Source: a virus. From it: 24,908 bases of DNA. Both the position numbers and the translations under genes were made by a program. The stretch lies in the IMG/VR virus record IMGVR_UViG_3300032086_000382, positions 1 through 24,908 of that record, one strand, 5' to 3'. Of the stretch, positions 1 to 3,554 are shown piece by piece. Position 1 is the first letter of the stretch. Each line of letters opens with the position of its first letter. Below the pieces are notes generated by a model that searched no databases, was not told the origin of the DNA, and saw nothing but the letters and a program-made list of their open reading frames with translations.

Positions 1-248
1 AAGTCCAAGAACAGGATGACGGAAACTCGCGGCTAGGCGATGTCGTCAAGATCGTTTTGCTTGGCTGGTCGATGGCAATCCTGACCGCCAACTACCTTGG
101 CGTCTTTAAGCAATCGCTCGATCCAACCTACCCAGCCTCAATCCTTTCTGGCACGGCAGCATCCTTTGGCTTAGCAGTCGGGAACAATAGAAAGAAAAAA
201 GAGGAGCCTACAATTAAGGAAGAACCATCTACCGCCAAACCAAAATGA
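1..248 (+). CDS. Membrane protein, C-terminal part (5' end outside window)
   Basis: The reading frame is open from base 3 to the TGA at 246-248, so this is the C-terminal ~82 residues of a longer protein. It can also start internally (TTG at 57 or ATG at 72), but the upstream frame encodes plausible sequence (GNSRLGDVVKIV), so I read it as cut by the window edge. Two hydrophobic stretches are visible, around IVLLGWSMAILTANYL and ASILSGTAASFGLAV, followed by a charged Lys/Glu/Pro tail. That gives a small two-pass membrane topology. Holins have such a topology, but no lysis enzyme is in view, so a holin role is only a possibility. Its stop overlaps the next start by ATGA (245-248), suggesting translational coupling to the secreted-protein block. 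Similar small membrane proteins occur in cyanophages as I remember; function unknown. Confidence 0.65.
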   Translation, partial: VQEQDDGNSRLGDVVKIVLLGWSMAILTANYLGVFKQSLDPTYPASILSGTAASFGLAVGNNRKKKEEPTIKEEPSTAKPK

Positions 249-736
249 AACGCACACTTTTGGTATTGGGCATCACCCTTACAGCCGCTTTACCAGCTCA
301 GGCTGACATCACCCATAGAATCCAATCCAGCGTTTCACTGTCTGTCGATGGAGCCGGATCAGTCGCGACGCGGATTCCGTCAACGTATTCAATATCTGGT
401 AATAACATCAATCTGGACACTGCTGGTGGTCTTGGCACCCTTACTGCCGGTTCCGCTGTTGGTTACACTCCTGCCGATTACAGCGTCACTACTGCTGGGG
501 ACGCTTTTAGCCTTACAGAATCATTTATTGAAGGAGACGCAACACCAACAGCAACCTCCGTCACCTCCGGAATAGTTGGTTCACTCCCAATGCTTGGTCA
601 AACCACCACAACTTCAGGCGGTGTGGCTGGCAGCCTTGCAGGCACAATCGCCACAGACGGCGCACTCACCATCACAGCTGGTGGCGCTGGCACTCAGGCA
701 ATCGGACAAGTCATCCAAGAGTTGACCATCAAGTGA
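245..736 (+). CDS. Secreted protein with Sec signal peptide, cyanophage-type, unknown function
   Basis: A 163-aa protein with a clear Sec signal: positive MKR, a hydrophobic core (TLLVLGITLTAALP) and an A-Q-A cleavage motif giving a mature start near Asp21. The mature part is rich in Thr, Ser, Gly and Ala with alternating small and hydrophobic residues, suggesting beta structure, and has almost no Cys or charged clusters. It is the first of three consecutive plus-strand genes for exported proteins (245-1913), each starting on the stop of the one before. The ATG lies in the ATGA overlap with the upstream gene and no Shine-Dalgarno is visible. I associate this family with cyanomyovirus accessory genes, from memory. 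It could be a virion surface protein or an exported host-envelope factor; the sequence does not decide. Confidence 0.75.
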   Translation: MKRTLLVLGITLTAALPAQADITHRIQSSVSLSVDGAGSVATRIPSTYSISGNNINLDTAGGLGTLTAGSAVGYTPADYSVTTAGDAFSLTESFIEGDATPTATSVTSGIVGSLPMLGQTTTTSGGVAGSLAGTIATDGALTITAGGAGTQAIGQVIQELTIK

Positions 737-1185
737 TGTGGACAGGAATTTGGATCACTTGGGGCGTTCTTTGCGTCATAGCTCTTGCCGCTCCAGAAGC
801 TAAAGCCGTCCCTGTTGTCCCAAATTTTCAACAAGGTGTCTTGAACAGCAAGACAACAACCAAGACCAAGGTAAACGAGGTCATCAATTCGTATGAATAC
901 CGCACAGGCTATGAACTCAGTGTTTCTGGAACGAACATCGCTCCAGTGAACGGGGAGATCGCACCTCGTGCTTTGACCACTACAACCAACACACTCAACG
1001 GTATCTCAAGTCGCTGGGTTGGCCTTGACCCTGCTGATAAGCCAGCCTGGAGCATCGTGAATCAAGGCGCTAGCTTTCAATTTGTCGAGACCCTCCAAGG
1101 CCCTGGCCTTGTTAATCACACCCTCATTAACAGGGAAACTGACATTGAATCCTTAACGGAGACGACAAGCACCTTCACCCAATGA
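736..1185 (+). CDS. Secreted protein with Sec signal peptide, unknown function
   Basis: I choose the ATG at 736 (149 aa) over the GTG three bases earlier because it forms a TGATG junction with the previous stop. The N-terminus has a hydrophobic stretch (TGIWITWGVLCVIALAA) and an A-K-A motif at about residue 24, a plausible signal peptidase I site, although the positive charge before the core is missing. The mature domain is polar and Thr/Asn-rich and ends TSTFTQ. No known catalytic motif is recognised. It sits in the middle of the three-gene block and its stop overlaps the next ATG by four bases (1182-1185). The shared layout suggests co-translation and perhaps one complex, but that is inference. 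Confidence 0.72.
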   Translation: MWTGIWITWGVLCVIALAAPEAKAVPVVPNFQQGVLNSKTTTKTKVNEVINSYEYRTGYELSVSGTNIAPVNGEIAPRALTTTTNTLNGISSRWVGLDPADKPAWSIVNQGASFQFVETLQGPGLVNHTLINRETDIESLTETTSTFTQ

Positions 1186-1913
1186 AGCGAGTCATTGCAA
1201 CGCTTTTGCTGCTTTCCGCTCCAGCACAAGCACAGGTTTCAAGTACCGCTGCACCAGTCGCTAATAGCTCCGGAAGTGTGACAAATCAGGCTGTGCAAGT
1301 CGTGCCAAGCCGCCAATTTACAAATACATATGGCGGGGGAATTAGTTGCCAAGGTGCAACGCTCAACATCAATCCCTTCCTTAGCTCAACTACCAGCTGG
1401 GCGACTCCGTATGAATCGCACTATGGCGAGCCGGTTTATGACACTCTCGATCTCGTTGGCGCGTTTGATCCGGAAGGTAATCCCGTCCCAGATGGCAGGC
1501 CCGATAATCCGGGCAATGTCCTTTTCTATAAACCTGTTCGCACAGGTCAAAAAACCAACTTCTCAATCAATGGCGGAATCACCGCCACAATCTCGATCCC
1601 GCTAGATCGTCAGCATGTCAGAAGCTGCCAAAAGGCTGCTGAAAAACAAGTGGCATTGCTAGACGCTGCATTGGCAGACAAGCGCCTCAACTATGAACTA
1701 GCCAGGCTTAAGAACTGTGCCGAGCTGATGCAAAAAGGCATCATGTTTCATCCTGACTCGCCTTACGCCAAAATTTGTGCTGATGTTGTCCTAACCAATC
1801 CGCCCGGCGTAACCCCGCCCCACATCCATTCCATCACTTACGCAAAGCCCGCTGAATCTTCCGGCGCTGCCAAGCAGACTCAACAGGAACTTTCCGCCCC
1901 AACTTCTCCTTGA
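1182..1913 (+). CDS. Secreted protein with Sec signal peptide, cyanophage-type
   Basis: A 243-aa protein. The first 17 residues (MKRVIATLLLLSAPAQA) form a textbook Sec signal with an A-Q-A site. The mature part contains a short conserved-looking block (VVPSRQFTNTYGGGISCQGA), a central polar region, and a helical segment around residues 145-185 (AAEKQVALLDAALADKRLNY) that could form a coiled coil. It has four Cys, at about residues 56, 149, 178 and 199, which in the periplasm could form disulphides. The last ~27 codons overlap the 3' end of the minus-strand 252-aa gene (1834-1913). I recall this family in T4-like cyanophages without a known function. Its position at the end of the exported-protein block suggests a shared envelope or virion role. 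Confidence 0.75.
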   Translation: MKRVIATLLLLSAPAQAQVSSTAAPVANSSGSVTNQAVQVVPSRQFTNTYGGGISCQGATLNINPFLSSTTSWATPYESHYGEPVYDTLDLVGAFDPEGNPVPDGRPDNPGNVLFYKPVRTGQKTNFSINGGITATISIPLDRQHVRSCQKAAEKQVALLDAALADKRLNYELARLKNCAELMQKGIMFHPDSPYAKICADVVLTNPPGVTPPHIHSITYAKPAESSGAAKQTQQELSAPTSP

Positions 1914-2592
1914 TCTTCTTAATTGCTTTTTTGACCGTTGGCTTGACGGCTTTAAGCAGAAAGTCACCTAATGGTTTTGCGAAGATGGCTGCCGTGGTCG
2001 CTACTGCGGCAATCGTGGCCGTCGTTGCCACAACAGGTGCACCAGGCAGATAATTGCCGATGATCGTTGGTACGTCCAGCGGCTCATAGATCACCTCACA
2101 TTTGCCGTTGACCCTTTCGTAACCAATGATGACGGCAGTTTGCGATTTGTTCTTCGCACCTAAAGGAATTGCGTCAGGTGGAGGACATGGAAGCTCTGTG
2201 GCTACGTTTGAAATGTCGAGAACAGGACTCGGCGTGGGAGAGACACCGCCCGGCTGACTTGAGACATCAGCCGGTTTTTCTATGTCTGGATCAATCGCTG
2301 GCGGCTTTGGCCTTTCGTACCTCAGAGCACCGGGCGTAAAATCCAGCGGCTTGTATGAAGGCATCGTGCCATCACAGACAACCACGTTCCCACGCGGATC
2401 ATCGGTGTAAGCGTCTTCATTTCCGGCTTGCGCATTTCGAGTCTCCACGCAGCCAGGAATATCCGCGACTGGAAAACCAAGCTGGAGCGTGATGGGTGGG
2501 GCATTTGGAATACTCTGTGGGGGCATTGAACGCCATGCAGGAATCTCTGGAACGGATACAGACTGCACCCCAATCTCAGGAATCTCTGGCAT
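1834..2592 (-). CDS. Proline-rich phage protein with C-terminal membrane segment and Lys-rich tail
   Basis: A 252-aa protein starting at the ATG 2592-2590. Residues 1-60 are Pro-rich (PEIPEIGVQSVSVPEIPAWR). A middle block carries the D-D-P-R-G and V-V-C-D-G-T-M-P-S-Y motifs that I associate with cyanophage proteins of unknown function. Residues ~95-140 are a second Pro-rich linker. Residues ~186-205 (PVVATTATIAAVATTAAIF) form one possible membrane helix, followed by a highly basic amphipathic tail (VKKAIKKIKEKLGRK). The start codon shares the CATG at 2590-2593 with the divergent 105-aa gene, so its leader lies inside that gene; no Shine-Dalgarno is seen. The 3' end overlaps the convergent secreted-protein gene by 80 bases. 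It could be a virion or membrane-anchored protein. Confidence 0.72.
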   Translation of the reverse strand: MPEIPEIGVQSVSVPEIPAWRSMPPQSIPNAPPITLQLGFPVADIPGCVETRNAQAGNEDAYTDDPRGNVVVCDGTMPSYKPLDFTPGALRYERPKPPAIDPDIEKPADVSSQPGGVSPTPSPVLDISNVATELPCPPPDAIPLGAKNKSQTAVIIGYERVNGKCEVIYEPLDVPTIIGNYLPGAPVVATTATIAAVATTAAIFAKPLGDFLLKAVKPTVKKAIKKIKEKLGRKVPVESAWQRRKIQRALRK

Positions 2593-2908
2593 GAAATCAG
2601 AACGGTTTACAGCGGGTCAGCTCTGGATTGAGCGCAACCGCAGACGAGAGGGCCCGCCCATTGTTTACACCGTAATGTCTGGCAAGACAGCAAGGCTGTT
2701 CACCGACCACAAGGCTATTCTCAAATTCGTGAAATGGCCGAAAGGCACACCAACTGGTGACAATCTGCGCGAATGGCTAGCGTCGTTTGACCAGAAACCA
2801 GAAGCACCCGCGCCAGAAACGAACTTTGCTGAACGGATCAAGGCGGAAGGTTTCGGGCCGGAAGCTCATGACGACGATCCAACCGCCAACGTCAAAATGG
2901 TGATTTGA
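2591..2908 (+). CDS. Small cytosolic phage protein, unknown function
   Basis: A longer frame opens at 2489, but I choose the ATG at 2591: it has AGGA about ten bases upstream, and upstream of it the frame is antisense to the start of the 252-aa gene. The product has 105 aa, is soluble and charged, with a basic N-terminal block (QLWIERNRRREG), a V-Y-T-V-M-S-G segment and an acidic tail (EAHDDDPTANVK). No catalytic motif or known domain is recognised. It is the only plus-strand gene between minus-strand neighbours. It starts on the same CATG as the divergent gene to its left and overlaps the 3' end of the 76-aa minus gene by 17 bases (2892-2908). Confidence 0.65.
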   Translation: MKSERFTAGQLWIERNRRREGPPIVYTVMSGKTARLFTDHKAILKFVKWPKGTPTGDNLREWLASFDQKPEAPAPETNFAERIKAEGFGPEAHDDDPTANVKMVI

Positions 2909-3122
2909 TCGGCAGGCCAGTCTTTGTCGGCATTTCCGGCATCGCTTGATCAAGCTGAGCTGGCATCATGTTCGTGACCAGCTTGGTCATTTCTAGCGTT
3001 AGCTCGCTCATGTAATACTTCGTCAGCGATGGGATCCGGGTGTAAAGCATCACCGACCCGGCAACCAATGCCCCGCTCATAAAGAAAGCGGAAACAGACA
3101 TCACGTTAAAGAGTTTCTGCAT
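2892..3122 (-). CDS. Small single-pass membrane protein, cyanophage-type
   Basis: A 76-aa protein beginning MQKLFNVMSVSAFFMSGA. Residues ~8-27 form one membrane helix. The rest is an amphipathic region (TKYYMSELTLEMTKLV) and a Pro/Met-rich tail. The same pattern, with the motif M-L-Y-T-R-I-P-S-L-T-K, occurs in small proteins I recall from cyanophages. The ATG lies only a few bases beyond the U-tract of a strong terminator hairpin and has no Shine-Dalgarno, so read-through transcription or an internal promoter would be needed. An alternative start is Met8 (3101). Function unknown; the topology fits a small inner-membrane peptide. Confidence 0.72.
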   Translation of the reverse strand: MQKLFNVMSVSAFFMSGALVAGSVMLYTRIPSLTKYYMSELTLEMTKLVTNMMPAQLDQAMPEMPTKTGLPIKSPF

Positions 3123-3191: not shown

Positions 3192-3554
3192 TCAGAAGCT
3201 GTACTTCATGCCAAGTTTTGAACCAATAGACAGCTCATCGCCAGTCATTCCGCTCAGCTCTGCATAAACAGAAGCGTTATCGGTGACAGAAACAGAGCCG
3301 CCGAACTTGCCAGCAAACTCAATTTCGCTGTCTGCACCGTCAGGCATCACAATGGCAGGACCACCCTGGATGTAGAAGGAATACGGACCCGAAGAGGTCT
3401 CGTAACCCACATCAAGGTTGAGCGTTCCACCAAGATAGTCATCGCCATAAACGCCGCCGTTGAACTCAGGGTTCACGTAAACGTCTGCGAGCGCAGGAGA
3501 TGCCAGCGCAGCTGCTGAAACGGCGACACCACTCGCAATGAGAAATTTGATCAT
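3192..3554 (-). CDS. Secreted outer-membrane beta-barrel-like protein
   Basis: A 120-aa protein with a 23-residue Sec signal peptide (MIKFLIASGVAVSAAALASP then ALA, cleaved before Asp24). The ~97-residue mature part shows alternating polar/hydrophobic strands (GTLNLDVGYE, YSFYIQGGPAIV, FAGKFGGSVSV, ASVYAELSGM, SKLGMKYSF) and ends in Phe. A C-terminal aromatic residue is a hallmark of outer-membrane barrel proteins recognised by the BAM complex. The length is small for an eight-stranded barrel, so it may be a minimal barrel, an oligomer subunit or a soluble periplasmic protein. I recall relatives in cyanophages, usually unnamed. It follows the 41-aa peptide gene by 11 bases and is closed by a terminator, so it is the last gene of the long minus-strand unit. 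Confidence 0.78.
   Translation of the reverse strand: MIKFLIASGVAVSAAALASPALADVYVNPEFNGGVYGDDYLGGTLNLDVGYETSSGPYSFYIQGGPAIVMPDGADSEIEFAGKFGGSVSVTDNASVYAELSGMTGDELSIGSKLGMKYSF

Follow-up and report, generated by a model that had tools for sequence, protein, structure and literature searches.

The window, by which is meant the whole stretch of 24,908 nucleotides that was analysed, is a 24.9 kb record representing a cyanophage fragment. The genes for head and tail are on the minus strand, in the order terminase fragment (24873), portal, tape measure, tail-tip protein and fibre (8392-4526; the fibre protein has SPRY and DUF7483 domains), and over 1.9 kb these genes match siphovirus KBS-S-2A with 74% identity. 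At the left end, opposite in direction to these genes, lies a plus-strand operon, p1-p2-p3-p4. Gene p1 (3..248; DUF6450, PHROG 721/21865) specifies a small membrane protein whose N-terminus is cut by the window edge: the frame is open from base 3, and the start falls ~20 nt further upstream in the near-identical locus L002. It is followed by genes for an exported beta-rich protein, p2 (245..736; PHROG 564), a relative of which in S-RSM2 has been deposited under the name "OMP1", and for two more exported proteins, p3 (733 or 736..1185; DUF6322, PHROG 650) and p4 (1182..1913; PHROG 848/1755). Three minus-strand genes come next. The first, p5 (1834..2592; PHROG 570), is convergent with p4, the two 3' ends overlapping by 80 nt; its product is rich in proline and has, near the C-terminus, a single TM segment (187-205) followed by a basic tail. 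The second, p7 (2892..3122), encodes a 76-aa protein with an N-terminal TM segment, a member of PHROG 568, which carries the label "plasmid stability". The third, p8 (3192..3554; PF24653 Phage_OMP), encodes an exported outer-membrane beta-barrel-like protein, and its place near the fibre genes is reminiscent of lambda lom.

(Some smaller features of the region: opposite p5, and overlapping it, runs an ORF, p6 (2489-2908; PHROG 37139), whose likely ATG (2591) shares the palindrome CATG with the p5 start; of the first 83 loci examined, 69 have a p6 match. The same short motif occurs at the beginning of p5 and near the end of p7 (PEIPEI / MPEMPTKTG; MPEIPEVP in T4-like relatives), and is possibly a shared docking peptide.)

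Public classifications say little about what these proteins do. Pfam, NCBIfam and PADLOC assign no function to p2-p5, Pfam and NCBIfam gave nothing for p2-p4 except DUF6322, the block matches none of the PADLOC models of anti-phage defence, and no mention of DUF6450 or DUF6322 was found in the literature searched.

The initial annotation had picked out p2, p3 and p4 as a chain of coupled genes for exported proteins, and the gene boundaries that it gave are correct. Each product has an N-terminal hydrophobic segment followed by A-Q-A (p2), A-K-A (p3) or A-Q-A (p4), with predicted cleavage at MKRTLLVLGITLTAALPAQA/D in p2, ...APEAKA/V in p3 and MKRVIATLLLLSAPAQA/Q in p4. The proposed Sec-type signals are borne out by a simple rule (a hydrophobic 8-mer, then a small-x-small site; this is not SignalP): among the 34 genes of the window it selects p2, p3, p4, p8 and one unlikely start choice, and across relatives it selects 215/216 p2, 301/302 p3 and 313/314 p4 proteins. 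The coupling is likewise confirmed, together with that of the upstream membrane protein gene: the junctions are ATGA (p1/p2), GTGA/TGATG (p2/p3) and ATGA (p3/p4). The p1/p2 junction is ATGA in all 75 of the closest loci that have p1, and the p1/p3 junction of T7-like loci is ATGA in 71 of 72. The exported proteins are sparing in cysteine: p2 has none, p3 has only Cys 13, within its signal, and p4 has only residues 56, 149, 179 and 199. No lipobox or lipoprotein cysteine was found in p2, p3 or p4.

The 81 residues of p1 that fall within the window comprise a hydrophobic segment (17-35), a second, weaker one, and a charged C-terminus rich in Lys and Glu; the relative in P-SSP7, PSSP7_043, is annotated with two TM regions. 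Small size, TM segment(s) and a charged C-terminus make up the anatomy of a holin, and p1 is a candidate holin-like protein on those features, although the family searches returned no known holin family, nothing but DUF6450 and PHROGs to which no function is assigned. p2 is probably a distant paralogue of p3 (hhalign probability 94%, E 9e-8); the aligned part includes the signal peptide, so the paralogy is likely but short of proof. In the AlphaFold2 model of p3 (61 sequences; pLDDT 82, with a low pTM of 0.42) two strands (33-56 and 124-148, each 24-25 residues long) form a hairpin that is polar on both faces. The p4 model (79-sequence alignment; pLDDT 68.6, with a low pTM of 0.37) has beta strands and then a 42-residue helix (143-184); its four cysteines, C56, C149, C179 and C199, are invariant. 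Neither p3 nor p4 matches any PDB sequence, and profile search returned only noise. Foldseek found no PDB match to p4 below 0.001, and in BFVD only p4's own family; by fold, the T7-like cyanophage S-TIP37 has a p4 relative. For p3 it gave weak matches to collar or tail proteins of phages (8egr, E 2e-3, prob 0.75; 6iac, prob 0.54) and to the beta-pore proteins lysenin (E 0.03) and PA pore (E 0.07), the pore matches resting on geometry alone with TM-score <= 0.25. The basic C-terminal tail of p5 should, by the positive-inside rule, lie in the cytoplasm; this topology is judged on charge alone, and would need ~185 residues to be translocated without a signal.

A tblastn search of 50,697 phage records matched p4 in 461, p3 in 412, p5 in 406 and p2 in 390, all of them, to judge by their names, from cyanophages or uncultured marine phages. 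Loci were then compared in four IMG/VR sets of 80, seeded with the window, Syn9, P-SSP2 and MED4-184 and picked by p4, so that the presence of p4 in them is trivial and only the other genes are informative. The 80 loci closest to the window retain p4 and p3 in every case, p2 in 79, p5 in 77 and p1 in 75, and the missing genes fall at contig ends; p1-p2-p3-p4, convergent p5, and p7 keep the same order in ~80 close relatives. That the genes travel together in other cyanophages is thus upheld. The three-gene extent is not: the genes are coupled, but the limits were drawn too narrowly, with p1, p5, p7 and p8 belonging to the conserved neighbourhood. Gene arrangement is constant inside each of the four sets. 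In the window type p1, p2, p3 and p4 run forward and p5, p7 and p8 follow in reverse; the MED4-184 (M) type is the same through p7; the T4-like type has p2, p3 and p4 forward, then p5, (gp163), p7 and p1 in reverse; the T7-like type has p5, p1, p3 and p4 all forward, and p2 is absent. (The bracketed gene, Syn9 gp163 (PHROG 605, 211 aa; 10433-11068 in L085), lies inside the T4-like block in 52/80 loci; the other lineages do not have it.) The core common to T4-like, T7-like and siphovirus-like cyanophages accordingly consists of p1, p3, p4 and p5; p7 is a conserved companion except in the T7-like lineage, p8 is a neighbour in the window lineage and optional elsewhere, and strand and place of p1 and p7 differ between lineages. 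The co-travel and coupling of the block genes are far beyond chance.

The distribution also has its gaps. p3, p4 and p5 are absent from all GH19-endolysin carriers tested, and from Syn5, S-PM2, PSS2 and S-CBS2. Since Syn5, P60, KBS-S-2A, S-CREM2 and S-PM2, which infect the same hosts, are without p3, p4 and p5 and yet lyse cells, the block is not indispensable. Three T4-like phages of cluster C have kept a p1 relative but not the block. A host origin of the block was considered and rejected: the 17 matches in genome contigs, which come from Prochlorococcus and Synechococcus single-cell assemblies and from contigs binned under unrelated taxa, were judged to be phage DNA. (Block contigs have been binned into Bacteroidetes, Euryarchaeota, Chloroflexota and other MAGs or genomes (L358-L362, L364-L367, L369, L370, L372, L373), and one of 188 kb sits within a Nonlabens isolate assembly; these are most likely cyanophage contamination of unrelated reference genomes.)

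How p3 and p4 adjoin depends on the lineage. Window-type p4 begins at the stop of p3 (ATGA). In the other three types the p4 frame has its first usable start within p3, giving an overlap of 163 nt in T4-like, 136 nt in MED4-184-like and 109 nt in many T7-like loci. The p4 frame is open to the end of p3 in 71/71 T4-type, 66/66 M-type and 94% of 70 T7-type distinct p3 genes. When synonymous codons are shuffled within each p3 gene as a control, it stays open in 8% (T4), 4% (M) and 20% (T7) of cases; the p3 sequences are related and cannot be counted as independent, yet the difference is wide in three lineages. Among window-type p3 genes, where no inner start is needed, not one keeps the overlapping p4 frame open (0.6% expected). 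The inner p4 start has an SD-like 4-mer ahead of it in 67/71 T4-type and 48/74 M-type genes and in none of the T7 type, the inner start of which is therefore less certain. In the overlapping lineages p4 would gain 36-54 residues ahead of its hydrophobic segment. This conserved out-of-frame overlap, which apparently resembles that of overlapped spanin genes by convergence, has been missed or misplaced by current annotations. (Misannotated p4 loci are L086, 984-1472; L330, 38783-39238; and L083, 8001-8744. The start called for p4 in the public annotation of P-SSP2 and P-SSP7 drops the export signal, and in S-WAM2 p4 is without annotation although the frame is open.)

In the window lineage the block has a constant neighbour. 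Just outside the window, upstream of p1 and divergent from it, a C39-type endolysin gene is found in 61/61 window-type loci (the close loci having at least 1.3 kb of DNA upstream of p1); L002, whose p4 is 98% identical to that of the window, also has it. The protein belongs to the PHROG 10051 endolysin family (category lysis; E 1.6e-57), with a Peptidase_C39_2 domain and an N-terminal hydrophobic segment. Between its gene and p1 lie a Syn5 gp48-like small protein (PHROG 2738) and, in 51 window-type loci, a TM-plus-coiled-coil protein (PHROG 26178). PHROG 2738 adjoins the block in three lineages: in 66/80 siphovirus-like (S) loci, directly 3' of p4 in 72/80 T7-like loci, and before p1 in ~60/80 loci of the MED4-184 type. 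In KBS-S-2A the GH19 endolysin is directly preceded by two proteins, one of PHROG 26178 and one of PHROG 22542. The T7-like order (P-SSP7, genes 042-045) is tail fibre - p5 p1 p3 p4 - terminase, and in P60 and S-CBP42 an endolysin lies between tail fibre and terminase, in the place of the block in T7-like phages. T7 itself has its holin gene 17.5 and spanin gene 18.5 in that interval. In the T4-like lineage the block lies among replication genes, with no recognised endolysin beside it. The endolysin profiles used detected neither GH19 nor C39 endolysins in T4, T7 and M types.

(The block might have been taken as a plain replacement of the GH19 endolysin, p4 being absent from every GH19 carrier tested; that idea is weakened because window-type phages have a C39-type endolysin beside the block. 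Cyanophage wall hydrolases in L346 (S-PM2), L347-L349, L336 and L341 form a modular series: a common N-terminal segment of ~50 residues is joined to a varying catalytic domain, GH19, C39 or a C39-GH19 fusion.)

Information on timing comes from the T4-like loci. The sequence NATAAATA, the late-promoter motif of T4-like phages, occurs within the 150 bp upstream of p2 in 27/66 loci and of p1 in 35/57, the distance to the gene start being 20-40 bp in most cases; ~3.4 would be expected for each gene, and the background frequency in ORFs is 11%. This suggests that the T4-like block genes are expressed late, which fits lysis and virion roles equally well. A Sigma-70 promoter scan of the region yielded fewer sites than shuffles did, and its terminator-like sites (8 vs 4.4) are uninformative.

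What, then, might the block do? Its neighbourhood, the p3/p4 overlap and its composition favour, with about an even chance of being right, a late module for disrupting the host envelope in lysis, spanin-like in action and outside the spanin family. p1 would be a small holin-like protein of the inner membrane. p3 and p4, with p2 as a likely relative of p3, would be exported by Sec to the periplasm and form an envelope complex there, to which p4 would bring a long helix and cysteines capable of forming disulphides; the very long beta-hairpin contributed by p3 might form oligomers in or at the outer membrane. p5 would be the inner-membrane partner, anchored by its C-terminal TM segment with the basic tail in the cytoplasm. 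Once the wall had been cut, in the window lineage by the neighbouring C39-type endolysin, the complex would breach the outer membrane and so fill the role of Rz/Rz1 spanins. The endolysin neighbour, the shared small companions, the T7-like position, the overlap, the presence of block carriers among phages listed as spanin-less, NATAAATA and the p4 cysteines count for lysis. Against it count the lack of any catalytic domain, lipoprotein or known lysis family among p1-p5, lysis by phages of the same hosts that have no p3, p4 or p5, the place of the T4-like block among replication genes and not next to a recognised endolysin, the occurrence of p1 without the block, the signal-less translocation that the p5 topology would need, the low pTM of the models and their want of a confident PDB match, and late promoters that would suit virion proteins just as well. 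The narrower statement, that a non-lipoprotein exported complex of p3 and p4, anchored via the C-terminal TM segment of p5, replaces spanins in several marine cyanophage lineages, is tentative.

Lysis was not among the roles that the initial annotation had named, which were envelope change, a block to superinfection, and display on the virion. Late masking or alteration of the host surface by the exported proteins and p8, so as to keep other phages or released progeny from adsorbing to infected cells or debris, is a minority possibility. In its favour are export signals on all of p2, p3, p4 and p8, a Phage_OMP beta-barrel among them, the limitation of the block to cyanophages, and a window block that ends beside tail-fibre genes, where envelope-conversion genes such as lambda lom also lie; but it leaves the constant endolysin neighbour, the T7-like lysis-locus position and the p3/p4 overlap unexplained, p8 is not a constant companion, and strain-specific exclusion offers no reason for unrelated phage types to have p3 and p4 in common. 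That the proteins are virion or entry components, carried in the particle or waiting in the periplasm to act on the next host's envelope, is rather improbable: cleavable Sec signals are unusual in virion proteins, p3 and p4 match no PDB sequence, and Sullivan et al. (PMC3037559) describe the cluster only as hypothetical genes in a cassette, against which can be set nearness to tail-fibre genes, the late-promoter-like motifs and the weak resemblance of the p3 hairpin to collar/tail proteins 8egr and 6iac.

Two other readings carry still less weight. An outer-membrane pore passing nutrients or solutes during infection, as proposed for phage CsgGF and with no part in lysis, would draw on the lysenin and PA pore matches of p3, the OMP1 label of one p2 relative, and the precedent of pelagiphage and Melnitz pore proteins of no known role (PMC9004378). 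It is hardly likely, given that those matches are geometric only, that the strands are polar on both faces, that Pfam detects no CsgG/CsgF domain, and that the Melnitz authors themselves favour a lysis role (PMC9004378). Least probable is a mobile cassette whose genes have no function in common and owe their movement to the "plasmid stability" protein: mobility was suggested by Sullivan et al. 2010 (PMC3037559), and p1 and p7 do change strand and place between lineages, but constant p3-p4 order, start/stop coupling and conserved out-of-frame overlap point to joint function, and p7 is a 76-aa TM protein in which a Pfam search detects no nuclease or partition domain.

Several known systems bear comparison with the block. 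Marine cyanophages lyse Earth's most abundant photosynthetic cells. The lysis neighbourhood of Syn5, P60 and KBS-S-2A is like the block in genomic place and small companions (PHROG 2738, 26178), but has no p3, p4 or p5, and a GH19 endolysin where window-type phages have the C39 type. The CsgG/CsgF pores of pelagiphages and Melnitz (PMC9004378) are, like the block, marine-phage envelope proteins without host counterpart for which a lysis role (in timing) has been proposed; they differ in genes and hosts, and a curli-type pore was rejected for the block on finding no CsgG or CsgF homology.

The claim that the multi-gene system is undescribed needs qualifying: it is unassigned, but the cluster had already been noticed, and a p2 relative bore a name. 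Sullivan et al. 2010 (PMC3037559) reported a cluster of five hypothetical genes in every T4-like cyanophage except S-PM2, in many cases together with a plasmid stability protein; they gave it no function and suggested mobility. Their T4-GC 218, 219, 234, 235 and 237 with the plasmid stability protein (PMC3037559) are very probably the same block, compared as a cluster and not one to one: it too is found in T4-like cyanophages (Syn9 gp161-gp167), lies beside PHROG 568, and leaves S-PM2 without p3, p4 and p5. Their cluster was of T4-like phages only. New here are the export signals, the overlap, the endolysin neighbour, the proposed function and the range extending to T7-like and siphovirus-like phages; core hypothetical genes of T4-like cyanophages known since 2010 acquire a plausible role.

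(One identification that did not survive: Syn5 gp58, an annotated structural protein, was considered as p4 and rejected, Syn5 having no p4 match.)

The closest likeness is to spanins. Of the 677 phages counted by Kongari et al. (PMC6139136), 410 have spanin genes that are embedded or overlapped; 20 phages infecting Prochlorococcus and Synechococcus yielded no spanins, and the authors raised the question of an alternative route (PMC6139136). Members of that spanin-less list with block genes include P-SSP7, P-HM1, P-HM2, P-SSM2, P-SSM4, P-SSM7, Syn1, Syn9, Syn19, Syn33, S-SM1, S-SM2 and S-ShM2; Syn5, P60, S-PM2 and PSS2 are without p3, p4 and p5, and the block is thus not the whole answer. The block proteins have no detected sequence similarity to known spanin families, p2, p3 and p4 have AxA-type signals and no lipobox, p3 has a predicted long beta-hairpin, and p2 and p5 are extra partners; because the lipoprotein feature was looked for and not found, the block is not filed as a spanin. 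In other respects it is like the two-component spanins (Rz/Rz1; T4 PseT.3/PseT.2): 1) the gene pair is coupled or overlaps out of frame (ATGA in the window type, 109-163 nt in the T4, T7 and M types), and its products are exported. 2) The place is that of a lysis locus, beside a C39-type endolysin in all 61 window-type loci and in the position of the P60 endolysin in T7-like phages. 3) One product, p4, has a long helix (42 residues) and conserved cysteines that would be periplasmic. 4) The hosts are Gram-negative. An i-spanin is a type II inner-membrane protein with an N-terminal TMD and a periplasmic coiled coil; the N-terminal hydrophobic segment of p4, which is followed by an AxA-type site and in three lineages preceded by the 36-54 aa extension, may either be cleaved off or serve as an anchor. 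p1, p3, p4 and p5 are thereby named as widely conserved candidates, common to unrelated phage types, for breaching the envelope without spanins, and the question of an alternative route becomes directly testable.
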